DNA of 64,000 nt from Pectobacterium aroidearum (GTDB lineage Bacteria > Pseudomonadota > Gammaproteobacteria > Enterobacterales > Enterobacteriaceae): NCBI RefSeq assembly GCF_041228105.1, contig NZ_CP166097.1, positions 3,348,001 to 3,412,000 of the forward strand. Direction: 5' to 3'. Under the pieces are notes generated by a model, which was given only the letters and a program-made list of their open reading frames with translations, ran no database searches and was not told where the DNA came from. Position numbers and translations under genes: made by a program. Below, piece after piece: positions 30,979 to 46,595 of this stretch. The first letter of the stretch is position 1. Each line of letters opens with the position of its first letter.

Positions 30979-32124
30979 TTATTTTGCGGGATTGCCGCTG
31001 GCGTCATACACCGGCCAATTTGACTCCAGTCCTTTGGCCTTCAATGCCCGATCGGCAAACTCGCCAGCAAACCAGTCGCTGGCTGAAAACGAGTTACGAA
31101 TGAGTCCGGCGGCTTTCGCCCGCTCTATGCTGTCCTGCAAGCTGCTAAGCAGGAACGGATCGAGACGCGGTGAGCTTTGAAACGGGAGATCTTCCGCTTT
31201 CAGCTCTTCCTGAAAGATCGCCTGCGGAATCTGGCTCTGCTCTGCCATTAGCGCGGTATAGTCCGGCAGGTGCTGCGCCTCGCCGATCCACCGCGCATTG
31301 TCCACCAGCACATTCACCAGTTGCTGTGTCGTGCCGGGATAGCGGTCGATAAAGTCCTGCGTCGCCAGCACCGCAGCCTGCGTGGTATTCGCCCAGCCCA
31401 GTGCTCGGCTGGTGGTCACAATATTAATTCCCTGCTTACGCAACGCCAGCAGGGAGACGCCGCCCCATACTGCATCCACGCGTCTGGCTGCGAGCGCCGC
31501 TTTGCCCGCCGTCCAGTCCAGATTGATGACCCGCACGTCGCGCTCGTTTAGCCCAACGCTTTTAATCGCGCGCTCAAACGACAGCTGATCGGCCGTTCCC
31601 TTGTAGACTGCAATCCGCTTACCGCGTAAATCTTCAATGCGTTGAATACCCGATTCCGGCGTCGCCGCCAGATAAGAATTAGAGCCGCGCGATCCCAGCA
31701 GCACCCGCGTCGGCAATCCCCCCGCCCGACCAATAATGGCCGCCAGATCGCCCAAATACACCACATCCAACTGCTTGTTCGCCAGCGCCTCATTTACCGC
31801 CGGACCCGCGCCTTTAAAGAACGACCACTGAATCTTGATGCCCTGCGGTTCAAATTCTTTCTCCAGTTGCTTTTGAATATGCGCCAACCCCAACGGCCCG
31901 CGGATAAAGGGTTTGCTGCCCGCGCTTTGGTCCGGCAAACCAATGCGAATCTCTGTCGGCTTCTGTGCATCCTGTGGGGCCGCATCGTTTGCCTGAACAG
32001 TCGATGCCATTAGCGCCGTGCTCATCAACAGAGCACCGCCAATGAACTTATGCAGCCCCTGTCGCCAGCGAGAATGGAAAGTTACCGATAAAATAGCTAT
32101 CGATGGGATTGATGGTTGGTGCAT
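30979..32124 (-). CDS. Periplasmic binding protein, sulfonate/sulfate-ester ABC transporter
   Basis: A 381-residue secreted protein with a long N-terminal region and signal sequence (FIGGALLMSTALMASTVQANDA). The mature part, EIRIGLPDQSAGSKPF...GPLGLAHIQKQLEKEFEPQGIKIQWSFFKGAGPAVNEALANKQLDVVYLGDLAAIIGRAGGLPTRVL, is of the SsuA/AtsR/TauA type. It would deliver sulfonates or sulfate esters to the permease encoded divergently. The ATG at 32124 has GAGGA 7 nt upstream. The signal sequence starts unusually late (about residue 25), so a shorter start is not excluded. Confidence 0.87.
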   Translation of the reverse strand: MHQPSIPSIAILSVTFHSRWRQGLHKFIGGALLMSTALMASTVQANDAAPQDAQKPTEIRIGLPDQSAGSKPFIRGPLGLAHIQKQLEKEFEPQGIKIQWSFFKGAGPAVNEALANKQLDVVYLGDLAAIIGRAGGLPTRVLLGSRGSNSYLAATPESGIQRIEDLRGKRIAVYKGTADQLSFERAIKSVGLNERDVRVINLDWTAGKAALAARRVDAVWGGVSLLALRKQGINIVTTSRALGWANTTQAAVLATQDFIDRYPGTTQQLVNVLVDNARWIGEAQHLPDYTALMAEQSQIPQAIFQEELKAEDLPFQSSPRLDPFLLSSLQDSIERAKAAGLIRNSFSASDWFAGEFADRALKAKGLESNWPVYDASGNPAK

Positions 32125-32362
32125 ACGGTTTTCCTCAATAATTTGTTTCATCTACCATGAAAACTAACGAACCGTCTGCATCAGGCTTAAATAACATTTA
32201 CAGGTTTGTTCAGCGGAAAAAAGCATAAATCAGCACTGGCGGGCGCGGGCTACGCATATGCATTTCTTGCACGGCGACCATCGCTTTATTGCATTGGCGT
32301 TCAAAGCTGAAACCTGTTTTTTATTCCCTATTCATCCAGTCGTGATGCTTTCGTGGAATAAA

Positions 32363-33976
32363 ATGAATAAGTCGATACTGCTGAAAAAAAACGCGAACAT
32401 CTGGCCTGCTCTACCGACAGCACGGGCCTATTCTCTTGTCGTGCCAAGAATTGTGTCGCTTGTAGTACCACTAATTGTGCCGCTGGCACTGCTGGCGCTG
32501 TGGTATATCAGCACCCACTACGGCTGGATGCCCGCCCAGATTCTCCCTGCCCCCAACGTCGTCGCTAACACCGCCGTCGAACTCTGGCACAACGATCTCC
32601 TGCCGCAGCTCTTTATCAGCCTGCAACGATTAGCCAGCGGTCTGCTGGCAGGCTTACTGGCGGGAACGCTGCTTGGCGCGCTCATGGGCGCTTCACGCCG
32701 CGCCGAACATCTGTTGCATCCGACGGTATACGCGCTGGCACAGATCCCGACGCTGGGCTGGATCCCGCTATTTATGGTGCTGTTTGGCATTGATGACGGC
32801 TTAAAACTTGCGGTCATCATCAAGGCGGTAATTATCCCGGTGACGCTGCATACGCAAACGGGCGTGCGCAACGTGCCGCATGCGCTCCAGGAAGTCGCCC
32901 GCACTCTGCGCCTGCCGTGGCATCAGCGCCTCATCAAATTAACGTTGCCCGCCGCACTCCCCACCTGGCTAACCGGCTTACGACTGGCGCTTTCGCAGGC
33001 ATGGGTATCGCTGATTGTGGTCGAACTGCTGGCGTCGTCTCAGGGCATTGGCTACCTGCTGGTATGGGGACGCCAGCTGTTTCAACTGGATATCGTGTTT
33101 GTCTGCATCGCCGTGATAGGTCTGGCAGGGCTGACGATGGAGTGGACAATCAATCAGCTGGAACGTCGTCTGGTCTTCTGGCCACACCCGCCGCTCAGTC
33201 GCTTAACCGCTGCGCCGTCTCGCCGCTTATCCGCGCTGGTTTTACCGTTCCTGCTTCTGCTGCTCTGGCAACAGGCCAGCCGTTTTGGCTGGATCGATCC
33301 GTTACTCCTGCCACCGCCCGCAGACGTGTGGCACATGTTGCTGCAAGGCGTCCACGACGGTTCACTCACTGAGGCAATGCAGGCCAGCCTGACTCGCGCG
33401 CTCGCCGGTGCGGTATGTGGCATTGTTGCTGGCCTCATAGGTGGCGTACTGCTGGGGCTAAACGCCACCAGCGACGCCCTTTTTACGCCCACGGTCGCGA
33501 CGCTGCGTCAGATCGCACTGTTTGCCTGGCTACCGCTGCTGACCGCCTGGGTTGGCAACGATGAAGCCGGGAAAATCACCTTTGTCGCCCTGGCCTCCTT
33601 CTTCCCCATGCTGGTAGCCAGCCATCGCGGTATCCGCCAGCGTTCGCAGGCCTTACAGGAAGTCGCACAGGTGTTACAGCTCCGTCTCTCAACCCGTCTG
33701 AGGGTGCTGATTCTGCCGGGTGCTGCTCCCGCCATCTTTGCGGGTTTACGTCTGTCGCTGATTTACGCCTGGCTTGGCACCATCGGCGCGGAATATTTCA
33801 TGTCATCCGGCACGGGAATCGGCAGCCTGATGATCAACGCCCAACAGTTACTGGATATGCCCCTCATTATCAGCGGCATGCTGTTGATTGGATTAACAGG
33901 CGCGGTACTCGACCGCGTTGGATTAGGTCTGGAACAGCGGATGACGCGCTGGCGTTCCGCAGGAGAAATCGCATGA
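32363..33976 (+). CDS. Fused double permease, sulfonate/sulfate-ester ABC transporter
   Basis: A 537-residue protein holding two BPD_transp_1 permease units in one chain. The first has EVARTLRLPWHQRLIKLTLPAALPTWLTGLRLALSQAWVSLIVVEL (EAA loop, about residues 180-230). The second has EVAQVLQLRLSTRLRVLILPGAAPAIFAGLRLSLIYAWLGTIGAEYF (about 440-490). SsuC-type permeases normally have one unit and homodimerise; AtsB of the Pseudomonas sulfate-ester system is, from memory, a similarly doubled permease. The ATG at 32363 has GTGGA upstream; longer in-frame starts lack a ribosome site. It overlaps the ATPase gene by 4 bp. Confidence 0.85.
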   Translation: MNKSILLKKNANIWPALPTARAYSLVVPRIVSLVVPLIVPLALLALWYISTHYGWMPAQILPAPNVVANTAVELWHNDLLPQLFISLQRLASGLLAGLLAGTLLGALMGASRRAEHLLHPTVYALAQIPTLGWIPLFMVLFGIDDGLKLAVIIKAVIIPVTLHTQTGVRNVPHALQEVARTLRLPWHQRLIKLTLPAALPTWLTGLRLALSQAWVSLIVVELLASSQGIGYLLVWGRQLFQLDIVFVCIAVIGLAGLTMEWTINQLERRLVFWPHPPLSRLTAAPSRRLSALVLPFLLLLLWQQASRFGWIDPLLLPPPADVWHMLLQGVHDGSLTEAMQASLTRALAGAVCGIVAGLIGGVLLGLNATSDALFTPTVATLRQIALFAWLPLLTAWVGNDEAGKITFVALASFFPMLVASHRGIRQRSQALQEVAQVLQLRLSTRLRVLILPGAAPAIFAGLRLSLIYAWLGTIGAEYFMSSGTGIGSLMINAQQLLDMPLIISGMLLIGLTGAVLDRVGLGLEQRMTRWRSAGEIA

Positions 33977-34782
33977 CGTCCACTCCCCTTGATGTGCCGC
34001 CACCGGTGGTGCAGTTCGATCGCCTGCGTAAACAGTTTCGCGTGCAGGGCGAAGCGCTGACGGTGATTGATGATTTTTCCCTGTCGATTCACAGCGGTGA
34101 ACTGGTCGCCATTGTCGGCAGCAGCGGCTGCGGCAAATCTACGTTGTTACGTATGTTGGTCGGTCTGGACAACGACTATCAGGGACGCGTGCTGGTTGAA
34201 GGGCAAACCGTGCGCGGTATCGGGCGCGAGCGCGGCATGGTGTTTCAGGAACCGCGCCTGTTTCCGTGGCTGACGGTACGGCAAAACATCGCACTCGGGC
34301 TGGCGAATGAGGCGATCGATAGCAAAGAGCGGAAACGCCTGATCGACCACTTTATTCAGCTTGTGCACTTGCAGGATTTTGCCGACGCCCTACCCGCCCA
34401 GCTTTCCGGCGGCATGGCGCAGCGTGTCGCGATCGCACGAGGTCTGGTCGCCAACCCACGCATCCTGATGCTGGATGAGCCTTTTGGTGCGCTGGATGCG
34501 CTAACGCGCCAGCAGATGCAGCAGGAGCTGCGCCGCATTCATCAGGCGGAGGGCACCACCACGCTGCTGGTCACCCACGATGTCGAAGAAGCCGTCTATC
34601 TCGCCGATCGCGTCGTCGTACTGGCACCGCGACCGGGTCGTATCCGCCAGATTGCGACAATTTCGCTGCCGCATCCGCGCCAGCGTGACAGCCAAGATTT
34701 TCACCAGCAGTGCAGCCAGTTGCTCGCATTGCTGACTCAGCCCGCCGATACCGCGGCCGCTTTCTCTTCACTGAACTCATAA
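33973..34782 (+). CDS. ATPase of the sulfonate/sulfate-ester ABC transporter
   Basis: A 269-residue ABC ATPase of the SsuB/TauB/AtsC type: Walker A GSSGCGKST, Q-loop VFQEPRLFPWLTV, signature LSGGMAQR, Walker B LMLDEPFGALDALTRQQM, switch His in LLVTHDVEEAVYLADRVVVLAPRPGRI. It powers the fused permease, with which it overlaps by ATGA. Seventeen base pairs separate it from the sulfotransferase-like gene, so the three genes form one operon. Confidence 0.92.
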   Translation: MTSTPLDVPPPVVQFDRLRKQFRVQGEALTVIDDFSLSIHSGELVAIVGSSGCGKSTLLRMLVGLDNDYQGRVLVEGQTVRGIGRERGMVFQEPRLFPWLTVRQNIALGLANEAIDSKERKRLIDHFIQLVHLQDFADALPAQLSGGMAQRVAIARGLVANPRILMLDEPFGALDALTRQQMQQELRRIHQAEGTTTLLVTHDVEEAVYLADRVVVLAPRPGRIRQIATISLPHPRQRDSQDFHQQCSQLLALLTQPADTAAAFSSLNS

Positions 34783-34798
34783 ATACTGGAGCACCATT

Positions 34799-36592
34799 AT
34801 GGGACACCCTTCCGTCTACCCGACCGGTACGACGATTTACAACCCGGAAAAAGCCTGGGGCGGCTACACTGTCTTTCAGGCGCTGGAGCGCGGCGCGGTG
34901 CTGGTGGATATGAACGGCACCGAACTACGCCTGTGGGAAGGCTTGCACGGTTTTCCCAACAAAATCCTGCCCGGCGGTTACATCCTCGGGCATAGCGGTG
35001 AACGTGATTCGCGCTACGGCATGCAGGACATGGTCGATCTGATTCAGGTGGACTGGGACGGCAACGTCGTCTGGAAATTCAACGGCTATGAACACATTAC
35101 CGATCCTGATCTCCCACCAGAATGGATGGCGCGCGTCCATCATGATTACCAGCGCAGCGGTAATCCGGTCGGCTATTACGCACCGGGACAAGAGCCGCAG
35201 TCGATTGGCGGCAACACGCTACTGCTGGCGCATACCAATCTGCATAACGAACGGATCAGCGACAAACTGCTGCTCGACGACACCATTATTGAGGTGGACT
35301 GGGAAGGTAACATCTTATGGGAATGGCGTTGCAGCGATCATTTTGACGAGTTGGGCTTTGACGACGATGCGAAAACCGCGCTGTACAACAATCCTAACCT
35401 GCGCAAAAGTGGCGGCGGCATGGGCGACTGGATGCACATCAACTCCATGTCGGCACTCGGCCCCAACCCGTGGTTCGATCAAGGCGATACCCGTTTCCAC
35501 CCGGATAACATTATCTGGGACGCCCGCGAATCCAACATCATCGCCATCATCGACAAACAGAGTGGCAATATCGTCTGGCAGCTTGGTCCTAATTACAACA
35601 CGCCTGAACTCAAACACATTGGCTGGATTATCGGCCAGCATCACGCGCATATGATACCCGCGGGCTTGCCGGGGGCGGGCAATATTCTGGTGTTTGATAA
35701 CGGTGGTTGGGCAGGCTACGGCGCACCCAATCCGGCCTCGGCCGACGGCGTGAAAAACGCCTGGCGTGACTATTCGCGCGTGCTGGAAATCAACCCGGTG
35801 ACGCTGGATATTGTCTGGCGCTATTCGCCCTACGAAGCAGGCATTCCACACCCGACCGACGCTTTCCGTTTTTACAGCCCGTACATCAGTAATATCCAGC
35901 GCCTGCCGAACGGCAATACGCTGATTAACGAAGGCGCCAATGGTCGACTCTTTGAAGTCACCGTCGATCACGAGATTGTCTGGGAGTTTATTTCCCCGTA
36001 TTGGGGCAAGACGGTGAATACCAACATGCTGTATCGCGCTTACCGTGTGCCCTACGAGTGGGTGCCACAGTTGCCGCGTCCACAGGAAACGCCAGTGATC
36101 GCCCCCGACAACACTCGGCTACGTCAACCGGGAGCCGCCGCCCCCGGCTTCGCCAGCGTCATTCGTATTGAGGGCACGCGCCCCTACAAAAAGAGCGGCG
36201 ATGCCCTGTGCGTCGCAACCGATAGCGAAGACCTCAAGCGCAGCCCGAAGCTTTTTGCCGTCAACCGCGAGCGCTTTGCTTCACTGACCGCTGACGACTG
36301 GCCTGAACTGGCAGCCCAACAAGGCCCACAGTTGCTGCTGGTCGGCGCGGAGCGCTGCGTCCACTGCAAAAGCCTCTACCGCCAGTTGGAAACGATTCTG
36401 GATAACGAGGAACACCGCCACTTACCGAGTCATTATCTGGACGCCGATCGTCACACTGCGCTGGCGGAGAAACTGGCGGTCAGAACGTTACCGACCCTGC
36501 TATGGATCGAAAATGGTGGAGAACGGGCTCGCTTGAGCGGCGCACAGCAACCCGAACGCCTACGCCAGTGGCTGGCCGCACAGCAACGCTAA
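34799..36592 (+). CDS. Arylsulfotransferase-like beta-propeller fused to a C-terminal thioredoxin-like domain
   Basis: This 597-residue protein has no signal peptide. Residues about 15-420 form repeated propeller blades (VDMNGTELRLWEG, IEVDWEGNILWEW, DKQSGNIVWQLG, DIVWRYSPY, EVTVDHEIVWEF) with many His and Trp, in the ASST/Arylsulfotran_2 pattern. From about residue 470 a thioredoxin-like domain follows: FASLTADDWPELAAQQGPQLLLVGAERCVHCKSLYRQLE with a CVHC redox pair, then RTLPTLLWIENG containing the cis-proline. ASST enzymes move sulfate between phenols. Position at the end of a sulfur ABC operon suggests cytoplasmic handling of the imported sulfate ester. The role of the redox domain is unknown. 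Confidence 0.8.
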   Translation: MGHPSVYPTGTTIYNPEKAWGGYTVFQALERGAVLVDMNGTELRLWEGLHGFPNKILPGGYILGHSGERDSRYGMQDMVDLIQVDWDGNVVWKFNGYEHITDPDLPPEWMARVHHDYQRSGNPVGYYAPGQEPQSIGGNTLLLAHTNLHNERISDKLLLDDTIIEVDWEGNILWEWRCSDHFDELGFDDDAKTALYNNPNLRKSGGGMGDWMHINSMSALGPNPWFDQGDTRFHPDNIIWDARESNIIAIIDKQSGNIVWQLGPNYNTPELKHIGWIIGQHHAHMIPAGLPGAGNILVFDNGGWAGYGAPNPASADGVKNAWRDYSRVLEINPVTLDIVWRYSPYEAGIPHPTDAFRFYSPYISNIQRLPNGNTLINEGANGRLFEVTVDHEIVWEFISPYWGKTVNTNMLYRAYRVPYEWVPQLPRPQETPVIAPDNTRLRQPGAAAPGFASVIRIEGTRPYKKSGDALCVATDSEDLKRSPKLFAVNRERFASLTADDWPELAAQQGPQLLLVGAERCVHCKSLYRQLETILDNEEHRHLPSHYLDADRHTALAEKLAVRTLPTLLWIENGGERARLSGAQQPERLRQWLAAQQR

Positions 36593-36792: not shown

Positions 36793-36807
36793 TGTTATGT
36801 TATTACA
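36793..36807. promoter_or_regulatory. Zur-box-like site upstream of the Opp/Nik-type operon
   Basis: TGTTATGTTATTACA matches the 15-bp Zur core TGTTATANTATAACA at 12 of 14 defined positions. It sits 31 bp before the first start codon. An in-frame ATG inside the site is therefore not the real start. Confidence 0.68.
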
Positions 36808-36838
36808 TATCGATTTACACCAACCGTATACGTTAACC

Positions 36839-37681
36839 ATGATTAACTGGAACAGACACACAGACGCCATTCTTCAGGTAGAGAACCTTAATCTATCTAT
36901 TGGTGGCGAAGCCAAAGTCAGCGAGGTCAGTTTTACGCTGTTCGCGGGTGAACGTGTCTGTTTACTCGGCGCATCCGGTTCAGGTAAATCCCTCACTGCC
37001 AAAGCAGTCATCGGCACGCCGCCAGCAGGTTGTCAGGTTAGTGGCAGCATTCGGGTCAATGGCGAAGAGGTGGGTCAGTTGAAAGCGCTGGCTCGCCCGC
37101 AGACTGGCCGCGTCTCTGCCGTGTTCCAGGACTCGGCAGCAGCGCTGAATCCCCTCATGCCGCTGGGAAAACAGCTGTCACTGGCGTTGAAAACGACCTC
37201 TTCCGCTGAGCTTTCTGCGCTGCTTAGCGCTATGCAATTGGATGACATTCCCAACCTGTTGCAGCGCTACCCTGCCGAATTGTCCGGCGGTCAGCGTCAG
37301 CGCATTTGTATTACCCTTGCACTGCTCGGCAAGACGCGTCTGCTGGTGGCAGACGAGCCCACTACCGCGCTTGATGTCATTACTCAGCAGCAGGTATTGC
37401 AGGTCTTACAGGAACGTAGCGTCCAGCCGGACGCCCCCGCCCTGCTGTTTATTACGCATGATATCGCCGTTGCCGCACAACTTTGCCAACGCGGTCTGGT
37501 GATGGAAAACGGGCAGATCGTGGAATCTGGCAGTATGCTGCAACTGCTGGATGCACCACAGCATCCTTACACCCGCAGTCTGGTTGCTGTCGCCCGTCGC
37601 GCTGACACACTTTTATCCGACAATGTGTTATTGACGACGAATATATCGCCTGCAACCATTGCCGGAGCGCTCGCCGGATGA
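36839..37681 (+). CDS. Opp/Nik-type ABC ATPase 1 (NikD/DppD/CntD-like), candidate zinc or metallophore importer
   Basis: A 280-residue ATPase of the peptide/nickel transporter family: Walker A GASGSGKSL, VFQDSAAALNPLMPLG, signature LSGGQRQR, Walker B LLVADEPTTALDV, His switch FITHDIAVAAQL, and the C-terminal HPYTRSLVA typical of Opp/Dpp ATPases. First gene of a five-gene operon preceded by a Zur-like box. The ATG at 36839 is used because an earlier one lies within that box; its Shine-Dalgarno is poor. It overlaps the second ATPase gene by 4 bp. Zinc-related function is inferred from regulation, not from this sequence. Confidence 0.85.
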   Translation: MINWNRHTDAILQVENLNLSIGGEAKVSEVSFTLFAGERVCLLGASGSGKSLTAKAVIGTPPAGCQVSGSIRVNGEEVGQLKALARPQTGRVSAVFQDSAAALNPLMPLGKQLSLALKTTSSAELSALLSAMQLDDIPNLLQRYPAELSGGQRQRICITLALLGKTRLLVADEPTTALDVITQQQVLQVLQERSVQPDAPALLFITHDIAVAAQLCQRGLVMENGQIVESGSMLQLLDAPQHPYTRSLVAVARRADTLLSDNVLLTTNISPATIAGALAG

Positions 37682-38514
37682 ACCACCACCTGCATGCGGT
37701 TCCCACACCGTTTTTAAGCCTCGAACACGTCAGCCGCTATTGCCAAACGTCGCGTTTGCCGTGGCAAAAGATCGATCCTGCCGGTGCGATTTTTCACGAC
37801 CTGTCGCTGACGATACAACAGCATGAACGCGTCGGGCTGGTTGGCGCTTCCGGCTGTGGTAAATCCACGCTGCTAAAAACCCTGCTCGCGCTTGAAGCGC
37901 CGGAGCGTGGCGCCGTGTACTGCGACGGCAACCTGATTAAGCCGGGATCGGTGCGTTCGCTGATTTGGTATCGTCGCCGCGTCCAGTATATTCCTCAGGA
38001 TCCGGCAGGCTCGCTCGCGCCACGCCAGCGCGTTGCCGATCTTCTCACCGAGCCGCTGAAACGACTCCGTCCTGATGAAAACCGGCATGTTAATGGAAAG
38101 AATTCGACCCGTCTGCGTGAAGTCATGGATCAGGTGGGGTTGAGCACCACACTTCTGGACAGAGTCGCCGGGCAGCTTTCCGGCGGTCAGGCACAACGTG
38201 TCGCGCTGGCACGAGCGCTGATGGTTCAACCCGAGTTTTTAGTGGCGGATGAGCCGGTCAGCGGTCTGGATTTACCGTTGCGCGAACAGATTAAAACGCT
38301 GCTTCAACAGGTCACCAAACAAAACAAGATGGGTTTACTGATGGTATCGCACGATATTTCCATGCTCGCCGGTTTGTGCGACAGAATGCTGGTTATGGAC
38401 GGCGGATGCATCATTGAAGATCGCCCCACCGCCGAGGTTCTGGCTTCACCGCAGCAGCCGCACACTGCCCGCCTGTTGCAGGCCGTACCCGCGCTGTCGA
38501 CGTCTGGTTATTAG
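37678..38514 (+). CDS. Opp/Nik-type ABC ATPase 2 (NikE/DppF/CntF-like)
   Basis: A 278-residue partner ATPase: Walker A GASGCGKST, Q-loop YIPQDPAGSLAPRQRV (the position where this family has QDP), signature LSGGQAQR, Walker B LVADEPVSGLDL, and LMVSHDISMLAGL. It forms the heterodimeric motor with the preceding ATPase, to which it is coupled by an ATGA overlap. A gap of 98 bp follows before the MFS gene, the largest in the operon. Confidence 0.9.
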   Translation: MNHHLHAVPTPFLSLEHVSRYCQTSRLPWQKIDPAGAIFHDLSLTIQQHERVGLVGASGCGKSTLLKTLLALEAPERGAVYCDGNLIKPGSVRSLIWYRRRVQYIPQDPAGSLAPRQRVADLLTEPLKRLRPDENRHVNGKNSTRLREVMDQVGLSTTLLDRVAGQLSGGQAQRVALARALMVQPEFLVADEPVSGLDLPLREQIKTLLQQVTKQNKMGLLMVSHDISMLAGLCDRMLVMDGGCIIEDRPTAEVLASPQQPHTARLLQAVPALSTSGY

Positions 38515-38612
38515 CTCGCTGAGCACACATTTTTTACAATAAAATACCGCGTCAATAACACATTTTCCCATCGCGGGCTTTTATCACGACTCTTCTTATA
38601 ATGGATGATGAC

Positions 38613-39860
38613 ATGTCAGACCTTACCGCCAGCCGCACGCCGCGGCCTTACCCTCCGTTGCTTCTGGGCAGCCAGCTTGTTTTCAACATTGGCTTTTATG
38701 CCGTCGTGCCGTTTCTGGCGATTTTCCTGCGTGACGACATGCTGCTTTCCGGCTGGGCTATCGGACTGGTGATTGGCTTACGCACCTTTTCTCAACAGGG
38801 CATGTTTTTAGTCGGCGGTGCGCTGGCTGACCGCTTTGGCGCACGCGTAATTATCCTGTGCGGCTGCGTCGTACGCATCAGCGGTTATCTCCTGCTGGCG
38901 CTGGGCGATTCGCTGTGGCCGATTATTCTCGGTGCCTGCCTGACCGGCGTCGGCGGAGCCCTGTTCTCCCCCGCCATTGAGGCATTAATGGCGCAAGCCG
39001 GTACGCAAAGTGAAAAAGAGGGAAAACGCAGCCGCTCCGAGTGGTTCGCCCTGTTTGCGATTTGCGGCGAGCTAGGCGCGGTGTTGGGTCCCCTGCTGGG
39101 CTCGGTACTGGCTGGATACGGATTCCAGCGCGTGGCGCTCGCCGGCGCTGGCGTCTTTGTCATTGCGCTCATCGTCCTGTTTTTCAGTCTGCCGCCGACG
39201 CAGCGTAATCAGGGCGAATTACACATCGCCCCATGGTGGGAAACCTTCCGCCAGCGGCGCTTTGTTGCGTTCATCATTGCCTACAGCGCTTACCTGTTCA
39301 GCTACAACCAGCTCTATCTGGCGCTGCCAGTTGAACTGCACCGCTCCGGAAGCAGTGAGAAAGACCTCGGCCCGCTGTTTGTTCTGGCTTCACTGCTCGT
39401 GATCGGATTACAGCTTCCGCTGGCGCGTTTTGCCCGCCGGGTTGGTGCAGCACGCATGCTGCCATTGGGCTTCGCACTGCTGTCTGCCTCGTTCCTTAGT
39501 GTCGCCCTGTTTGCTTCCAGCACGCCGCCAGAAGGATGGCAGCGCCTGCTTCCGGCTATCTCCTTGATTACCCTGTTAACGCTGGGACAGATGTTAATCG
39601 TCCCCGTTGGTATGGATCTCATCCCGCGTTTTGCCAACAACCAGAATCTGGGGGCGCACTATGGCGCGCTGGCATCGATGGGCGGCATTGCTGTTCTGGT
39701 CGGCAACTTTGTACTCGGTAGCCAGCTCGACCGTGCGCTGACGCCGTCGCCACAGGCCGCTATTCCGTGGGTGCTGCTCGCCGCTGTGCCGCTGTGCAGT
39801 TCGCTGGCGATGATGGTCATCTGCCGCCCGTTTAAATCCGCTTCAACCTTGAATGAATAA
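38613..39860 (+). CDS. MFS transporter inside the Zur-linked ABC operon (CntE-like position)
   Basis: A 415-residue, 12-TM MFS protein: LLLGSQLVFNIGFYAVVPFLAIFLRDDMLLSGWAIGLVIGLRTFSQQG, motif A GALADRFGARVIILCG. It belongs to the drug-exporter-like group and sits between the ATPase and binding-protein genes. In opine-metallophore systems (staphylopine Cnt) an MFS exporter, CntE, is encoded with an Opp-type importer, which makes metallophore export a reasonable guess. The start at 38613 has GGA 7 nt upstream; an ATG at 38601 is in frame without a ribosome site. Confidence 0.82.
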   Translation: MSDLTASRTPRPYPPLLLGSQLVFNIGFYAVVPFLAIFLRDDMLLSGWAIGLVIGLRTFSQQGMFLVGGALADRFGARVIILCGCVVRISGYLLLALGDSLWPIILGACLTGVGGALFSPAIEALMAQAGTQSEKEGKRSRSEWFALFAICGELGAVLGPLLGSVLAGYGFQRVALAGAGVFVIALIVLFFSLPPTQRNQGELHIAPWWETFRQRRFVAFIIAYSAYLFSYNQLYLALPVELHRSGSSEKDLGPLFVLASLLVIGLQLPLARFARRVGAARMLPLGFALLSASFLSVALFASSTPPEGWQRLLPAISLITLLTLGQMLIVPVGMDLIPRFANNQNLGAHYGALASMGGIAVLVGNFVLGSQLDRALTPSPQAAIPWVLLAAVPLCSSLAMMVICRPFKSASTLNE

Positions 39861-39870
39861 GGACAGACTG

Positions 39871-41382
39871 ATGAATATGCGTAATCTCCTGTGGCCCGTT
39901 TCCGGCCTGCTATCAGCCACACTGCTGCTGTCAGGCTGCTTCAACGAGCCGGAGGAAAAGCACACCTCGCATCATGACGGCCGAATCAAACTGGCGATGC
40001 TTCAACCACCGCGCTCCGGCCTGACGCCATTGAGCGATGATGCCTTTAAGCTGTCGCGCTGGAGCACGGCAGAAACGCTAGTGGTGCTCGACAAGCTCGG
40101 CGAAGCTCAGCCTGCGTTAGCGACAACATGGCAGCAGATCGATGATAAATCCTGGCGTTTTGAGCTGCGTCCCAATGTTCATTTTCACGATAACACCACG
40201 TTAAACGCCGCCACGGTGGTTAATGCGCTCACCGTCGCGTCCACCGCCGCCCCCAAACCGCGCATTCTGGACGGCGTGCAGTTAACGGTAAAAGCCGATG
40301 GCGATAACGCCGTGATTGTCTCCACCGCTAAAGCCGATCCACTGCTGCCCCAGCGCTTATCCAGCCCGCAGTTGGCGATTCTCTCTACCCATGCCTACGG
40401 CCAGAATGGCGTCGTTAACCCAGTCAATACCGGAAGCGGTCCGTTTGTTCTGCGTAGCGTCACTGGCACCAGCAGCGCGGTGTTAGATAGATTCGACGGT
40501 TACTGGGGTGAAAAAGCGCAGGCCAGCGGGATCGACGTCAGCTTTGTCTCTGACGGTGCAGCGCGCGCGGCTGCATTACGTACCGGCACGGCAGACATTG
40601 TCGAAGCCATTCCGGTTTCTCAGGCACCGCTGCTGGATCAATCGCTGGTGCATGAAGTCCCGATGCCGCGTACCAACACGCTGTATCTGAATACGCTCCA
40701 TGGCGTGATGCAAGATCCTGCGATGCGTGCCGCCGTGCGTGATGCCATCAATCGCCAACAGCTGGTGGATAACGTTTATGAGAAGCGCGCCGACATCGCG
40801 CAGGGCCTGTTAGGTCCCGCGTTGCCGTGGGCGGCGGAACTGCGCCAGCCGGTGGCAAATCCGGTCAAAGCCGGTACGCCTGCGGGTGCGACCATCACGC
40901 TGGCAACCTTCAGCGATCGCGCCGAGCTGCCTGAGGTGGCAGTCTATCTGGCACAGCAGCTTACCGCCGCCGGATTTACGGTGAAACAGGTAGTGCGTGA
41001 GTATGCGCAGATTGAGTCCGACGCGCTGGCAGGCAAGTTTGACGCCTTTATTTTATCCCGCGCTACCGTGCTGGATTCCGGCGATCCGGTGGCTTACCTG
41101 TACAGCGATTTTGCCTGCGAAGGGTCATTCAACATCGCGCAACTGTGCCGCCCGGAAATCGATCTGGCGTTACAGAAAGCGGCTATGATTCCTGCTGGCG
41201 TTGCACGCCGTCAGGCCATCATGCAGGCAGAAAACCTGATCCTTGCCAGCGATGCTGCGATTCCGATGCTGCATGAGCGCGTCATTCAGGGTGAAAGCGC
41301 ACAGGTAAAAGACGCACTGCGCGACCCGCGTGAACGCACGCTGATTAACGCCACCACGCATATTGCTACCGACGCGAAATAA
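39871..41382 (+). CDS. Lipoprotein substrate-binding protein, SBP_bac_5 family (CntA/NikA/DppA-like)
   Basis: A 503-residue lipoprotein with lipobox LLSGC (Cys23), followed at once by a short His-bearing linker EEKHTSHHDGR. The body matches extracellular solute-binding family 5: ETLVVLDKLGEAQPALATTWQQIDDKSWRFELRPNVHFHDNTTLNAATVVNAL, TGSGPFVLRSV, FDGYWG. Such proteins bind peptides, nickel or metallophores. The ATG at 39871 has AAGGA 7 nt upstream; an overlapping ATG at 39853 is less likely. A lipid anchor is unusual for a Gram-negative member of this family. Ligand unknown; zinc linked by operon regulation. Confidence 0.88.
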   Translation: MNMRNLLWPVSGLLSATLLLSGCFNEPEEKHTSHHDGRIKLAMLQPPRSGLTPLSDDAFKLSRWSTAETLVVLDKLGEAQPALATTWQQIDDKSWRFELRPNVHFHDNTTLNAATVVNALTVASTAAPKPRILDGVQLTVKADGDNAVIVSTAKADPLLPQRLSSPQLAILSTHAYGQNGVVNPVNTGSGPFVLRSVTGTSSAVLDRFDGYWGEKAQASGIDVSFVSDGAARAAALRTGTADIVEAIPVSQAPLLDQSLVHEVPMPRTNTLYLNTLHGVMQDPAMRAAVRDAINRQQLVDNVYEKRADIAQGLLGPALPWAAELRQPVANPVKAGTPAGATITLATFSDRAELPEVAVYLAQQLTAAGFTVKQVVREYAQIESDALAGKFDAFILSRATVLDSGDPVAYLYSDFACEGSFNIAQLCRPEIDLALQKAAMIPAGVARRQAIMQAENLILASDAAIPMLHERVIQGESAQVKDALRDPRERTLINATTHIATDAK

Positions 41383-41420
41383 CGGGTAACACGCCCAGCA
41401 ACCAGAAAGATGACGAGTTT

Positions 41421-43199
41421 ATGAGCGAACCGCTATATTGCCGCACCTGTGCAACCATCAACCAGACACAACGCCCGCAATACGGCATGCTGATCCCGCT
41501 GTTTTCGCGGCTGCTGACGCTGGCGGGGATCGTCGTGCTGATTGGTATGCTGCCGTGGTTGTCCGGTCAGGATCCGGCGCTGGCGCTGCTACGTGCTCGT
41601 TCCGGCGAGCAGGAAGCGACGGCGGAAACGCTAAATGCCATTCGTCACTCTCTCGGGCTGGATCAGGGCCCACTGCAATTGCTGTTGAACTGGCTGACAG
41701 GTCTACTACACGGCGATGCAGGCAATTCCTGGGTGTCTGGCCGACCAGTCCTTCCGGGGATGTTACAGGCGGCGGGCGTCTCGCTCACGCTGATGGCGTC
41801 CTCAGCGCTGGTGGCCTTCACACTGGCTGCCGTGTTGTGCGCCCCAACCTTTCGCCAGGGGTTACGCGGTCAGGTTCATCGTTCAGGCGGTCTGTTTGCC
41901 GCCTTATTTACCGCACTGCCTGAATTTCTGCTGGCGTCGTTTCTGCTGATCGTCGGTGCCGTCTGGCTACAGTGGTTTCCGCCCTATGGCTGGCTGGGCC
42001 TACACTACGCGGTGCTGCCGTCGCTGGCGCTCGGTATTCCGGCAGGCGGCTACCTTGGTCGAATTATTGCCGACGCACTCTCCGCCACGTTCAGCGAAAA
42101 CTGGCTCACCACCTGGAGCGTGGCGGGCGTGAGCCGTCGTCATGTCGCACTGGCGGTGCTGAAACGTACGTTGCCCAGCGTGATGCCGCTGGTCGGGCTG
42201 GTGCTGGTCTCGTTAACCGGTGGTGCCATCGCTGTCGAAAAAGTATTCGCGATTCCCGGTCTGGGACGTGCGACGCTGGGAGCTGCGGCCGCACAGGATC
42301 TGCCCGCCTTACAGATTGGCGTGTTGATTCTTTTACTCATCGCCTCACTGGCGGGTATCGCTGCCAGCGGCGTACGGCTGCTGATTCTCGGACGCGCGCT
42401 GCGGAGCGGGGCGATGCCCGTGCCGGAAGAACGTGGTAGCCCGGTGTCTCGCTATGCAATCTGGCTGCCGGTTATCTGCGTGCTACTGCTGGCGCTGCTG
42501 TTGCTGGCTGGCTTACCGCGCGATCCCTATACGTCTGCCTTTCTACGCCTGCAACCGCCGTCGTTCCTGCTGCCTTTTGGCGCGGACGCGATGGGGCGTG
42601 ATTTACTGGCGCGCGTCGCCCACGGCACGCTAAATACCTGTCTGCTGGCACTGGTGGTATCGCTGGCCTGTCTGGCAATCGGCCTGCTGGTTGGGCTGTT
42701 TCCGCGTCTGCTTACGGGCCCCATCGAAGTGACCAACGCCTTGCCGCCGGTGATTGCCGGGCTGCTGGTTGCCGCCGTTAATGGCCCGACGGCAACGGGC
42801 GCGGCGATTGCCGTGATTGCAGTGAGTTGGGCTCCGCTGGCTGCCCACACCGCGGCGCTGGTCGCCGAAATTAATGCGCGTCCTTATATTCGCATGCTGC
42901 CAATCCTTGGCGTGGGACCGATACGGCGCAGCCTGTTTTATGTTTTGCCTGCGCTGATTGGGCCACTCTTTCGTCACGCCATGCTGCGACTGCCAGGCAT
43001 CGCGCTGGCGCTGGCATCGCTCGGCTTCTTAGGTCTGGGAGCCTCACCGCCGACACCAGAGTGGGGACGCGTGCTGGCAGAAGGAATGCCGTATATCGAA
43101 CGTGCCTTCTGGGGCGTGCTGGCACCGGCGGCCGCACTCGGCGTGCTGTCGATACTGGCCGTGAGCGCGGCAAACCTCTCTGGTCGCCACAAGCACTAA
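41421..43199 (+). CDS. Fused Opp/Nik-type permease (NikB-NikC or CntB-CntC in one chain)
   Basis: A 592-residue protein joining both permeases of a dipeptide/nickel-type transporter. The first half has SLGLDQGPLQLLLNWLTGLLHGDAGNSW and the EAA loop TTWSVAGVSRRHVALAVLKRTLPSVMPLVGLVLVSLTGGAIAVEKVFAIPGLG. The second has LPFGADAMGRDLLARVAHGTLNTCLLALVVSLACLAIG and VGPIRRSLFYVLPALIGPLFRHAMLRLPGIALALASLGFLGLGASPPTPEWG. In most relatives these are two genes. The N terminus carries an extra 22 residues with a Cys-x-x-Cys pair (YCRTC) before TM1, possibly metal-binding. Last gene of the Zur-linked operon. Confidence 0.87.
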   Translation: MSEPLYCRTCATINQTQRPQYGMLIPLFSRLLTLAGIVVLIGMLPWLSGQDPALALLRARSGEQEATAETLNAIRHSLGLDQGPLQLLLNWLTGLLHGDAGNSWVSGRPVLPGMLQAAGVSLTLMASSALVAFTLAAVLCAPTFRQGLRGQVHRSGGLFAALFTALPEFLLASFLLIVGAVWLQWFPPYGWLGLHYAVLPSLALGIPAGGYLGRIIADALSATFSENWLTTWSVAGVSRRHVALAVLKRTLPSVMPLVGLVLVSLTGGAIAVEKVFAIPGLGRATLGAAAAQDLPALQIGVLILLLIASLAGIAASGVRLLILGRALRSGAMPVPEERGSPVSRYAIWLPVICVLLLALLLLAGLPRDPYTSAFLRLQPPSFLLPFGADAMGRDLLARVAHGTLNTCLLALVVSLACLAIGLLVGLFPRLLTGPIEVTNALPPVIAGLLVAAVNGPTATGAAIAVIAVSWAPLAAHTAALVAEINARPYIRMLPILGVGPIRRSLFYVLPALIGPLFRHAMLRLPGIALALASLGFLGLGASPPTPEWGRVLAEGMPYIERAFWGVLAPAAALGVLSILAVSAANLSGRHKH

Positions 43200-43357
43200 T
43201 CGATGGTGGAACGCCGCCTCAACGCTCTCTTCTCTTCACACTCACAGTTCCGCCAGATTTCACGATGGCGGGCCTGTGCATCTTCAGTTACGCTGTGAGC
43301 TAACCTCTGCCGAAGTACGGGATATGAATAATGCAGAGCGTGATTAAAGGAGAGAAT

Positions 43358-44812
43358 ATGCATAACAGCGACGTCAGTCTTACCGTCACTCAGGCTCTGG
43401 ATAAACTGGAAGCGCTGTATGATGACGCCGTCTCAGCGCTGCGCGACGCCATCGGGGACTTCATCAATGATGGCACCCTGCCCGATGCCAACGCGCGCGC
43501 GGCGGGATTATTTTCCTACCCGGCCTTGCGCGTCAGCTGGAGCGGCAATTCGACCGGCCATCCCCGCCATCGCGCCTATGGACGTTTCACCCATCCCGGC
43601 AGCTACTCCACCACCGTGACCCGCCCGGCATTTCTACGCGCTTATCTGGCTGAACAGCTTGCGCTGCTGGAGGGGGATTATGATGTCACCATTGACGTCA
43701 GCCCGTCACAGCAGGAAATTCCGTTCCCCTACGTGCTCGACGGTTCCGACCTGATTCTTGACCGCTCCATGAGCGCGGGCATCGCCAAACATTTCCCCAC
43801 TACGGAACTGTCACAGATTGGAGACGAGACGGCCGACGGGCTGTTTCATGCCACCACCACATCGCCGCTGTCGCACTTCGACGCCCTGCGCACTGATTTC
43901 TCGCTGGCGCGGCTTCGCCACTACACCGGCACGCCGGTGGAACATATTCAGCCGTTTATCCTCTTCACCAACTACACCCGTTATGTCGATGAGTTTGTAC
44001 GCTGGGCGTGTGCGCAGATTGCCGATCCCGATAGCCCCTATGAGGCACTATCCTGCGCGGGCGGTATCTACATCACCGCCGAGACACCGAACCCAGAGCA
44101 GACGGTGTCCGATCTGGCCTGGAAGAACCATCAGATGCCTGCCTATCACCTGATCCCCCGCCAGGGTAAAGGGATTACGATGGTCAACATTGGCGTCGGA
44201 CCATCCAACGCGAAAACCATCTGCGATCACCTTGCGGTGATGCGTCCGCATGCCTGGCTGATGATTGGCCACTGCGGCGGCCTGCGCGAGAGTCAGTCCA
44301 TCGGTGATTATGTGCTGGCGCACGCTTACCTGCGTGACGATCACGTACTGGACGCCGTATTGCCGCCTGACATCCCGATTCCCAGCATCGCCGAAGTGCA
44401 GCGTGCGTTGTACGACGCCACCAAGATGGTCAGCGGCATGCCGGGAGAAGAAGTTAAGCAGCGCCTGCGTACCGGCACGGTGGTTACCACTGATGACCGC
44501 AACTGGGAGCTCCGCTATGCGGCCTCTGCTCTACGGTTTAACCTCAGTCGCGCCGTCGCGGTAGATATGGAAAGTGCGACAATTGCCGCGCAGGGGTATC
44601 GTTTCCGAGTGCCTTACGGCACGCTGCTGTGCGTCTCGGATAAGCCGTTACACGGTGAAATCAAGCTGCCGGGACAGGCAAACCGTTTCTATGAAGGGGC
44701 GATTTCGGAGCATTTGCAGATTGGCATCTGCGCCATCGATCTGTTGCGGGCTGAAAGCGATAAGCTGCACTCACGCAAACTGCGTACCTTTAACGAGCCG
44801 CCGTTCCGCTAG
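43358..44812 (+). CDS. amn: AMP nucleosidase
   Basis: A 484-residue cytoplasmic enzyme, the same length as E. coli Amn, that cleaves AMP to adenine and ribose 5-phosphate. It has an Amn-specific N-terminal domain (LEALYDDAVSALRDAIGDFI, FSYPALRVSWSG) and a nucleoside-phosphorylase-like C-terminal domain (VNIGVGPSNAKTICDHLAVMRPHAWLMIGHCGGLRESQSIGDYVLAHAYLRDD, AVDMESATIAAQGYRF). The ATG at 43358 has AGGAG 5 nt upstream; a longer frame from 43331 is unlikely. No Zur-like box precedes it, so membership in the zinc regulon is doubtful. Confidence 0.95.
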   Translation: MHNSDVSLTVTQALDKLEALYDDAVSALRDAIGDFINDGTLPDANARAAGLFSYPALRVSWSGNSTGHPRHRAYGRFTHPGSYSTTVTRPAFLRAYLAEQLALLEGDYDVTIDVSPSQQEIPFPYVLDGSDLILDRSMSAGIAKHFPTTELSQIGDETADGLFHATTTSPLSHFDALRTDFSLARLRHYTGTPVEHIQPFILFTNYTRYVDEFVRWACAQIADPDSPYEALSCAGGIYITAETPNPEQTVSDLAWKNHQMPAYHLIPRQGKGITMVNIGVGPSNAKTICDHLAVMRPHAWLMIGHCGGLRESQSIGDYVLAHAYLRDDHVLDAVLPPDIPIPSIAEVQRALYDATKMVSGMPGEEVKQRLRTGTVVTTDDRNWELRYAASALRFNLSRAVAVDMESATIAAQGYRFRVPYGTLLCVSDKPLHGEIKLPGQANRFYEGAISEHLQIGICAIDLLRAESDKLHSRKLRTFNEPPFR

Positions 44813-44830
44813 TCAAATGATGTTGTTCAG

Positions 44831-44859
44831 GCAGCCGACCCCTGCGTGCCGTCGGCTGC
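44831..44859 (+). terminator. Terminator-like hairpin after amn
   Basis: A perfect 9-bp stem (GCAGCCGAC/GTCGGCTGC) with an 11-nt loop lies 18 bp after the amn stop and before the next Zur-like box. The T tail is weak. Confidence 0.5.
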
Positions 44860-44876
44860 TCTGGCGCGGTTAAATT

Positions 44877-44891
44877 CGTTATGTTATAACA
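44877..44891 (+). promoter_or_regulatory. Zur-box-like site upstream of the small Cys-rich gene
   Basis: CGTTATGTTATAACA matches the Zur core TGTTATANTATAACA at 12 of 14 defined positions and contains the palindrome GTTATAAC. It ends 27 bp before the start codon. Confidence 0.7.
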
Positions 44892-44918
44892 AATCAAATT
44901 TCATCGCGGATAAACCCA

Positions 44919-45158
44919 ATGAAGAAAGGTCTGTCAGTTCTGTTGCTTTCCCTGGTGGCGGCGCAAGCATCTGCGTTTCAAGCCAAAATGGTTCAGTCTA
45001 CGGAGAGCGGGCTACGCAATATTGATGACGCTAAGCGTGCCTTTTCCGGCTTTACGCCAATGGGGCTGAATACGATTCACCCCGGCCAGTGCGATGCCAC
45101 CTCCGTTAACGGCTGTGGTTGCCCATTTTGCACCCAGCTGCGGCTCATTGGCCGCTAA
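44919..45158 (+). CDS. Small exported Cys-rich protein, Zur-box associated, function unknown
   Basis: A 79-residue protein with a clean signal peptide (MKKGLSVLLLSLVAAQASA, cleavage after ASA). The mature part is about 60 residues and ends in a cysteine cluster, GQCDATSVNGCGCPFCTQLRLIGR, with four Cys within 14 residues. I do not recognise the family. The Zur-like box directly upstream and the convergent AztD-like gene suggest a periplasmic zinc-starvation role such as metal binding or handing zinc to a carrier. A GGAT Shine-Dalgarno is weak but present. Disulfide formation rather than metal binding is equally possible for the cysteines. Confidence 0.82.
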   Translation: MKKGLSVLLLSLVAAQASAFQAKMVQSTESGLRNIDDAKRAFSGFTPMGLNTIHPGQCDATSVNGCGCPFCTQLRLIGR

Positions 45159-45226
45159 TCACCACACCGTTGCTATAGACGATTCGGGCATCCCTGCCCG
45201 TATGCTGCTTCAATTCTGAACCGGGT

Positions 45227-46546
45227 TTAGCGCTTACCCGCCAGTTCGGTAGGCGCGCCATCAATCTTAATATCCAGCCCCTGCTTCGCGCTGTTCAGAT
45301 AAAACTCACGAATGCGCTGATTCACCGGATCGCTGACGTACACGCTGCCGCCGACGATGGCGAGCGACGGTGTCGGCGTTTTGGCACCGTAAGCGCAGTC
45401 AAACGCCTCGACCGCATCAAAGCTGGCGATTTGCTTCCAGTTTGGTGCCACGTCATATAGACGCAGCTTGCCATCTGGCGTCAGGTTTGCCACTCGTTTG
45501 CCATCGGCAGAGATTTCAAATTTACACACAGCCTGTTCATCCGGGATGGAAAACACATCCTGTGCCGTAAGCTTTTTGGATTGCGGATCGATACGAATCA
45601 GTGCGTTAAATGGCTGCCCGCCCAGCCCACCGTAATTCCCAATGACGTAACGACCTTGCAGACCCGATTTCAGCGTACTGGTACGACGATCGTCAGGATA
45701 AGCCAGCTTGTGCGACACCCATTTCCCACTCTGCTGTTTTACGATCAACACGCCGCCGTCACTTTTTGCATCACCTTCCGCCAGTTTTACATTACAGCCA
45801 AAAACGTGAACATGATTCAGCGCGCTGTGGCCGTGAAATTCTTTACACGAACGCTGGGGATCCTGCGCCTGATTAAAGTCCGCAATGGCTTTCCAGCCCT
45901 TATCCTGCTGATAAACAACAAAGCCATTAGGCCGCGACGTCACCGTTTTATCATCACCTTTGGCATAGGCCGCTTTCGGCACGGAAATCAGCCACTGGTT
46001 GTTCCCCAACGGCGCAGTGATACCGTGCTGCGGCGCAGGGCTTTTACGTTTCTCAACGACAGGATTGGCGCTATCCAGTTCAGACAAGCGGATCATCACC
46101 GATTCAGGCTGGCTGGGGCCGTCCCACGGACGTAAGCCATCGTATGACCAGGCGATCCAGCCGTTTTCCGAGGTAATATGCGAGGGTTTGTCTCCCGTCA
46201 CCCGCAGCGGCAAAAGCCGCGGCTCACCTTTATGCACGTCCAGATGGTCGTCATGCGATTCATAGGTCAGGCCAGTATCAAGGAAAGCAATCGTACCCGC
46301 GTCATCGTAAAGATTGACGATGGTGAATCGGCCATCTTCGGTAGGCACCAGCGATGCGTTCGCGTGACCCACGTCAAAAGTATGTGTGACTTTGAAGGTA
46401 TCCAGATCCAGCACGCTGAGCGTCGGTTTCTGGTGATCGGAAAAGATTAATCGTCCGCGCAATACCTCATGGTCGTGCGCCTGAACGCTCGCACTCCCCA
46501 CCCCCATCAGCAGCCCCAGAGTCGCCGCGATTGTCGTTTTCTGCAT
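45227..46546 (-). CDS. aztD: AztD-like periplasmic zinc metallochaperone (beta-propeller)
   Basis: A 439-residue secreted protein with signal peptide (MQKTTIAATLGLLMGVGSASVQA) and a mature N terminus HDHEVLRGRLIFSD rich in His and Asp. Seven propeller-like repeats follow, with histidine patches VGHANASL, SHDDHLDVHKGEP, HGHSALNHVHVFGC. This fits AztD, a chaperone that passes zinc to a periplasmic binding protein. GGAG Shine-Dalgarno. A near-consensus Zur box stands 35 bp upstream. It is convergent with the small Cys-rich gene. The family assignment is from remembered pattern; another metal-binding propeller is possible. Confidence 0.8.
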   Translation of the reverse strand: MQKTTIAATLGLLMGVGSASVQAHDHEVLRGRLIFSDHQKPTLSVLDLDTFKVTHTFDVGHANASLVPTEDGRFTIVNLYDDAGTIAFLDTGLTYESHDDHLDVHKGEPRLLPLRVTGDKPSHITSENGWIAWSYDGLRPWDGPSQPESVMIRLSELDSANPVVEKRKSPAPQHGITAPLGNNQWLISVPKAAYAKGDDKTVTSRPNGFVVYQQDKGWKAIADFNQAQDPQRSCKEFHGHSALNHVHVFGCNVKLAEGDAKSDGGVLIVKQQSGKWVSHKLAYPDDRRTSTLKSGLQGRYVIGNYGGLGGQPFNALIRIDPQSKKLTAQDVFSIPDEQAVCKFEISADGKRVANLTPDGKLRLYDVAPNWKQIASFDAVEAFDCAYGAKTPTPSLAIVGGSVYVSDPVNQRIREFYLNSAKQGLDIKIDGAPTELAGKR

Positions 46547-46580
46547 CTTTCTCTCCGTGATGTTATTGTGATTCTTGATA

Positions 46581-46595
46581 TGTTATAACATAACA
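46581..46595 (-). promoter_or_regulatory. Near-consensus Zur box upstream of the aztD-like gene
   Basis: TGTTATAACATAACA differs from the Zur core TGTTATANTATAACA at one defined position. It lies 35 bp upstream of the start codon, where Zur-zinc would block the promoter. Confidence 0.85.

Follow-up and report, generated by a model that had tools for sequence, protein, structure and literature searches.

Zinc is taken up by ZnuABC and by ZniCBA of Klebsiella through ABC (ATP-binding cassette) transporters of another class than the one considered here, a class with a cluster A-I binding protein. Among other described systems that resemble the present one are the nickel and cobalt importers NikABCDE, Staphylococcus aureus NikA (Opp5A) and Opp1/Opp2, the zinc proteins AztABCD of Paracoccus and AztD of Citrobacter, and the Cnt systems for staphylopine, bacillopaline and pseudopaline, which in S. 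aureus and Paenibacillus place an Opp-type importer beside an exporter of the major facilitator superfamily (MFS) (PMC7438024). Here we describe a five-gene operon (36839-43199) from a 64,000-nucleotide stretch of the genome of Pectobacterium aroidearum, a bacterium that causes soft rot of plants (contig NZ_CP166097.1, positions 3,348,001 to 3,412,000; the whole stretch is called the window). We propose that it encodes an ABC importer, repressed by Zur, for complexes of zinc with a small organic chelator that the Pectobacterium host apparently does not make itself. In this proposal the MFS transporter of the operon is an optional part, while two neighbouring genes that also follow Zur-type sites, one for an exported protein of 79 amino acids (aa) and one for an AztD-like protein, are separate units; to the proposal as a whole we assign a probability of about 60%.

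The operon and the Zur-type sites of the window are these:

36793..36807, + strand: Zur-type box of the importer operon (TGTTATGTTATTACA), matrix rank 3 of 63,978

36839..37681, + strand: NikD/OppD-type ATPase (PF00005; nikD 187.8 bits, cut-off 318.7; CntD 176.8 bits, cut-off 380)

37678..38514, + strand: NikE/OppF-type ATPase (PF00005; best NCBIfam model NikE, 198.7 bits, cut-off 354)

38613..39860, + strand: MFS transporter (nearest curated model MdtH, 134 bits, cut-off 469)

39853..41382, + strand: lipoprotein solute-binding protein (SBP_bac_5; lipobox-like LLSGC), the query that defines the family

41421..43199, + strand: fused NikB-NikC-type permease of 592 aa, with two PF00528 stretches in one protein

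44877..44891, + strand: Zur-type box of the gene for the 79-aa protein (CGTTATGTTATAACA), matrix rank 1

46576..46595, - strand: Zur-type box of the AztD-like gene, two overlapping registers, matrix ranks 2 and 4

Searches of Pfam and NCBIfam confirm the operon content given by the original prediction, namely two ABC ATPases, an MFS protein, an SBP_bac_5 lipoprotein and the fused permease. Comparison of 11 Pectobacterium loci indicates that the MFS gene is better started at 38613 than at 38601, because the ATG at 38601 has an equivalent in only one of the loci and a stop codon directly precedes the 38613 ATG in five.

All three predicted Zur-type sites (36793, 44877 and 46581) hold in their places, although none fits TGTTATANTATAACA exactly as had been claimed, the mismatches being two, two and one; the site at 46581 reads TGTTATAACATAACA. 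The distances to the starts at 36839, 44919 and 46546 were counted as 31, 27 and 34 bp, within the 27-35 bp originally given, and extra overlapping registers lie at 46576 and 44882. When up to three mismatches to TGTTATANTATAACA are allowed, the window holds five matches against 0.90 expected, a number reached in none of 100 shuffles. Training on five sites from outside the window in this genome gave a 23-base matrix that, scored over 63,978 window positions, ranks 44877 first, 46581 second and 36793 third, with scores reached in none of 200 first-order Markov windows. The 20-base Escherichia coli Zur motif quoted in PMC6103462 is matched perfectly at 46576 and with two mismatches each at 36793 and 44877. 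Scans for sigma-70 promoters and terminators gave counts no higher than in shuffles.

Like sites occur elsewhere in the genome, a single contig of 5.28 Mb. At no more than one mismatch, TGTTATNNTATAACA has 20 strand matches, compared with four for the reversed pattern, and these fall at 11 separate places, of which five precede genes named below, three are the window sites and three are others (1080877, 1491927 and 2267205) where inspection recognized no zinc gene nearby. One of the five stands between znuA and znuC, which are divergently oriented and score above cut-off (524 and 504 bits). The other four precede an AztABC-like set, ZigA, a GTPase (682 bits, cut-off 600), ribosomal protein L31 type B (121.5 bits, cut-off 86) and a FecBCD-like importer. 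With two mismatches allowed the matches are near background (50+62 against 45+50 in the control); one of four such sites inspected overlaps the start of a DUF1007-NicO gene pair, and nothing zinc-like was recognized at the other three. The genome also encodes Zur itself (NF008646, 319.7 bits, cut-off 167), with a gene that looks LexA-like on inspection 0.8 kb away.

To follow the operon across lineages, named genomes were scanned with the binding protein, and the best 80 of 251 relatives were taken, giving 79 loci; in 64 of these (L017-L080) the relatives share 56-98% identity along the best segment. For 58 proteobacterial loci, sites were scored within 180 bases around the start of the first gene and the best was taken. 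A site with at most two mismatches stands at the operon start in 57 of them, compared with 8 of the 796 other gene starts that served as controls there. Nine of the 58 best sites are perfect, 42 carry one mismatch, six carry two and one (Rhizobium) carries three; the loci cover 16 genera, and many come from sister species and thus are not independent events. The eight control starts comprise four AztD genes and one DUF1007 gene, together with a family-less 262-aa gene and two others. The 262-aa gene, from Vibrio maritimus (L062 1837-2625), has no Pfam or NCBIfam match and a perfect Zur-type site at its start.

The proteobacterial Zur-type box is not present in the six actinobacterial loci. A 15-base sequence that we take to be the actinobacterial Zur box finds its single best match directly ahead of the operon in five of the six loci, with a tie in L051. 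The mycobacterial Zur consensus published in PMC4298942 finds its best or joint-best match 58-84 bases before the operon start in all six. These matches are loose, with three to five mismatches of 24 where the best in single shuffled loci have three to seven, so that position and not score carries the argument; there are ties elsewhere in the locus in four of the six, and the set includes four loci that are closely related. The occurrence of two regulators' box dialects before one operon nevertheless appears to be the best sign of a functional link to zinc. Together with the presence of zur, the comparisons within the genome and across genera strongly support the predicted Zur control of all three units, which we consider very likely.

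The proteins of the operon point toward metal chelates. For the binding protein, the permease and the ATPases the nearest curated models describe nickel or cobalt systems, with CntD second for the first ATPase. A structural search placed S. aureus NikA nearest to the binding protein, one entry holding Ni-(L-His)(2-methyl-thiazolidine dicarboxylate), and peptide-binding folds just below; CntA is absent from the 50-entry match list, which is no evidence against kinship. Scores for the binding protein are far below cut-off both against curated NikA models (177 bits of 600 and 84.4 of 393) and against CntA (41.2 bits, cut-off 800). Residues R97, R137 and H416, which we take to hold the chelate in E. 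coli NikA, are not kept, aligning with K135, Q173 and a gap (alignment identity 98 of 524), and the same is found in 31 of 31 family members. Across 63 sequences, 166 of the 509 positions of the binding protein are at least 97% conserved, as would be expected for one fixed ligand. Import of a metal chelate is thus the best inference from these comparisons, and that the metal complex is one of zinc seems likely.

The operon differs from its described relatives in several respects. Compared with NikABCDE and the Opp importers, which provide the closest fold and the closest curated models, it has a Zur-type promoter site, one fused permease and an MFS gene, and its binding protein shares only ∼20% identity and lacks the presumed E. 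coli NikA chelate residues. The layout recalls the Cnt systems, although the likeness in Opp-type subunits is one of architecture; here the permeases are fused, the binding protein is remote from CntA and the exporter is optional. The likeness to ZnuABC and ZniCBA is that of zinc uptake, with a Zur-type site before znuA and znuC in this same genome.

The absence of opine-metallophore synthesis genes, originally reported for the window, extends to the genome in searches for the CntM and nicotianamine synthase (NAS) families. PF10100, for CntM, has no genome match at E<=1, and none of 14 control genomes scored above cut-off either, so that those controls do not demonstrate its sensitivity; PF03059, for CntL and NAS, reaches 11.8 bits at best (cut-off 27.1), with one of the 14 controls above cut-off. 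These results bear on the possibility that the operon is half of a home-made zincophore system, in which unlinked genes of an unrecognised kind would make the ligand, the MFS protein would export it and the ABC importer would bring it back, as in Cnt. An importer and an MFS gene in one Zur-boxed operon do resemble the arrangement in S. aureus and Paenibacillus (PMC7438024), and a second, FecBCD-like importer of the genome is also Zur-boxed. However, beyond the lack of a CntM match and the NAS score below cut-off, no shared biosynthetic neighbour was seen in 27 loci, where most neighbours lack annotation, and 20 of the 64 loci have neither an MFS gene of the window type nor a MATE gene, which makes such a system quite improbable. 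Pfam likewise recognized nothing biosynthetic among 10 neighbouring open reading frames of the actinobacterial loci, in GC-rich DNA where calling by long frames is poor; they comprise a cellulase, a lytic transglycolase, a LuxR-type regulator, a PhoD phosphatase, an ABC ATPase fusion and five family-less frames.

SBP_bac_5 proteins often bind peptides, and the operon could therefore be a Zur-controlled importer of a zinc-free nutrient, a peptide or metabolite making up for products that zinc enzymes cease to supply, or could salvage zinc-binding peptides, with no dedicated metallophore involved. The peptide-binding folds ranked just below NikA fit this explanation, as does the placing of Zur-type sites before a replacement protein, L31 type B, but the nickel or cobalt models nearest to every component except the MFS protein do not, and nor does the striking cross-phylum conservation of the binding protein, which is not expected of broad peptide binders. 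We therefore regard nutrient import as unlikely, if the more serious competitor. An importer of nickel or cobalt, with the Zur-type boxes reflecting metal cross-talk, would explain the NikABCDE-like subunits and the nickel names of the best models; with such boxes in 57 of 58 loci, the presumed ligand residues of E. coli NikA gone and the nickel models scoring well below cut-off, it is very improbable. KEGG places Opp-type transporters under 'quorum sensing'. In a zur mutant of P. odoriferum the changed genes were enriched in the KEGG classes 'ABC transporters' and 'quorum sensing', and the accessible part of that report names only znuABC (PMC10298282); such an enrichment would fit an Opp-type operon and is a weak hint.

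Under the proposal of zinc-chelate import, low zinc would cause Zur to leave the 36793 box and the operon to be transcribed. The lipoprotein would then bind the periplasmic zinc-chelate for uptake through the fused NikBC-type permease, with the NikD/NikE-type ATPases supplying the energy. The MFS protein, where present, would most likely send the zinc-free chelator back out for reuse.

This last step draws on the distribution of exporters. Of the 64 loci, 24, from two phyla, have a relative of the window MFS protein within the operon or immediately ahead of it; 23 belong to one sequence cluster, and the other, in Arthrobacter (L053), occupies the same operon slot at 44% identity. All 18 searched genomes of the genus Pectobacterium carry it. 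In 20 of 22 Vibrionaceae loci there is instead a MATE gene (one confirmed by Pfam), which mostly adjoins the importer but is 2.4 kb away in L063 and follows the importer in L074, and in five Rahnella loci a gene of one cluster directly follows the permease, identified by Pfam as EamA in the one checked. MFS, EamA and MATE proteins are exporter types reported with zincophore clusters (PMC7438024). Among the 20 loci with neither the window-type MFS nor MATE, that of Serratia (L048) has another MFS gene two genes on. Across 10 Pectobacterium loci the MFS gene is the best-kept of the operon, at a mean of 97.7% identity compared with 96 for the binding protein and permease and 88 for the ATPases; the mean for the adjacent gene amn is 97.5. 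The MFS protein may therefore be an optional partner, perhaps one returning the empty ligand, although recycling of the chelator is a tentative suggestion.

Relatives of this MFS protein also occur in other settings. In Enterobacter sp. BIGb0383 (L029 3944-8233) the MFS gene is flanked by the importer on one side and on the other by a divergent EitABC set for a siderophore (EitA 656 bits, cut-off 640; EitC 492, cut-off 485), a layout that makes a link of the MFS family to siderophore loci possible. A relative is also present in 224 Escherichia plasmid records.

The original prediction treated the importer, the small exported protein and the AztD-like protein as a single joint block, a view that is not supported. 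The remaining features of the region are as follows:

43331..44812, + strand: amn, AMP nucleosidase (NF006142, 811.5 bits, cut-off 307), which separates the operon from the 79-aa gene

44919..45158, + strand: 79-aa exported protein with a signal-like N-terminus and a C-terminal C-x7-C-x-C-x2-C motif (CDATSVNGCGCPFC)

45227..46546, - strand: AztD-like periplasmic zinc protein (NCBIfam NF038015; six ligand positions kept)

Besides the intervening amn, the parts do not co-occur. Among 11 Pectobacterium loci picked by their importer, four have AztD and seven the 79-aa gene, and in two draws of 394 genomes of the order Enterobacterales the 79-aa family was found in 5, the importer in 17 and both in 2, which are of the genus Pectobacterium. 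Because the three do not travel together, the joint block is rejected, and the 79-aa and AztD-like proteins are best read as separate, putatively Zur-controlled neighbours of the importer. We also rejected amn as an operon member: it encodes an ordinary AMP nucleosidase, and within L017-L080 only the loci of Pectobacterium, Samsonia and Brenneria and a single one of Pantoea have it close to the operon.

In Brenneria roseae (L028 14946-15365) the slot between amn and proP that holds the 79-aa and AztD genes in Pectobacterium is occupied by a gene whose product is DksA-like (114.8 bits, cut-off 115.5) and whose Zur-type box, at 15396, is perfect. A single Cys lies near the place of the zinc finger, and we read the protein as DksA2-like.

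The prediction of a tiny Cys-rich exported protein agrees with a sequence of 79 aa that has a signal-like N-terminus and four Cys. It has no match in Pfam or NCBIfam, its one match in PHROGs (E 0.064) is not significant, and its weak fold model (pLDDT 55.2, pTM 0.22) was not used. A profile search gathered 53 proteins of a nameless family from Pectobacterium, Samsonia, Brenneria, Dickeya, Musicola, Erwinia, Rahnella, Serratia, Superficieibacter and others, and 27 aligned members share an invariant AF past the signal segment and a C-terminal G-C-x-C-x-F-C-x2-L-R. The gene is preceded by a box with at most one mismatch in all eight related loci that have it. Three of the five carriers among the 394 genomes belong to other genera, and in their 3-kb loci the best-matching Zur-type site, with two, three and no mismatches, is at the beginning of the frame or directly ahead of it, so that this looks like a Zur-boxed family of its own. 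That the protein is a small zinc or thiol carrier is a guess. A nameless exported Zur-boxed family with an almost fixed C-terminal motif constitutes a second lead from this region.

The AztD-like protein was correctly identified, matching NF038015 with E 1.3e-34 (119.5 bits, cut-off 400) and the AztD chain 6cmk of the PDB with E 1.2e-26. Of the seven residues that bind zinc at sites 1 and 2 of AztD it keeps six, H98, H101, D103, H123, H174 and H238; it lacks the C-terminal His ligand, which is kept in 68.1% of AztD homologues (PMC6689063). The protein would act as a periplasmic zinc carrier, and its natural candidate partner is the AztABC-like transporter, whose Zur-boxed genes lie 2.5 Mb away. 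Unlike in AztABCD, the AztD-like gene is thus unlinked from the AztABC-like set, and all four proteins score below curated cut-offs (AztC 269 of 350 bits, AztB 252 of 280 and AztA 203 of 220). In addition, the residues directly preceding DPHAW in the AztC-like protein, where we presume the transfer loop to be, include no His. For these reasons a zinc hand-over as in Paracoccus appears doubtful.

The closest named relatives of the binding protein, among the best 80 of 251, are from Pectobacterium (94-98% identical), and the importer extends over two phyla, Proteobacteria and Actinobacteria. Among the 58 related loci that allowed the permease to be called, 57 have it as one protein, 497-604 aa long. 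Single operon genes were called as two reading frames in L017 (permease) and in L062 and L070 (first ATPase). At E<=1e-60 the binding protein occurs in 17 of the 394 genomes of the order, representing 4 of 114 genera.

Plasmids of Klebsiella are a further home of the importer. Among 72,556 plasmid records the binding protein is found in 524, of which 479 are from Klebsiella, and the fused permease in 509, of which 476 are. The box together with all five genes was read on one plasmid, pLVPK, where a 10.5-kb stretch carries the genes in the same order with identities of 67, 61, 72, 81 and 71%. A Zur-type box with one mismatch (L138 1558-1572) overlaps the annotated first start codon (1562), suggesting that this start is probably annotated too early. 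The pLVPK annotation gives the operon generic transporter names only. Klebsiella plasmids of the pLVPK kind are linked to hypervirulence. Full-text literature searches turned up no title or abstract that describes this importer as zinc-controlled. For P. atrosepticum a table in PMC4888284 carries the row 'Zur 4 3 1 3', and an earlier prediction of the box is possible; the main text of a study of ZnuCBA and ZniCBA in K. pneumoniae contains no occurrence of oligopeptide, dipeptide, MFS or pLVPK (PMC10797113).

Several additional Zur-boxed or neighbouring genes were observed. The FecBCD-like ABC importer at 201897 (L014 7084-9860) has a perfect Zur-type box 37 bp before its ATPase gene, and its nearest models, 'F420-0' and others, are all below cut-off. 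In the DUF1007-NicO pair of the same genome (1375843; L110 1343-2499) the two-mismatch palindromic box overlaps the called start, and in Vibrio jasicida (L070 5011-6545) such a pair has a perfect Zur-type box. Upstream of the operon, 30979-36592 encodes an NMT1-type binding protein, another fused double permease (572 aa), an ABC ATPase and an arylsulfotransferase-like protein with a C-terminal thioredoxin domain.

These findings raise the possibility, a shade more tentative than chelator recycling itself, of a further class of zinc uptake in Proteobacteria, Actinobacteria and plasmids of the pLVPK kind, which would import the zinc-chelates of others and, where an MFS or MATE protein accompanies it, send the emptied chelator out again. 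If so, a borrowed chelator from plant, microbe or host would work as a reusable zinc shuttle, and plant-associated, marine and soil bacteria, as well as Klebsiella by way of its plasmids, would hold an extra route of zinc acquisition, one kept hidden by labels as generic as 'ABC transporter' and 'MFS transporter'.

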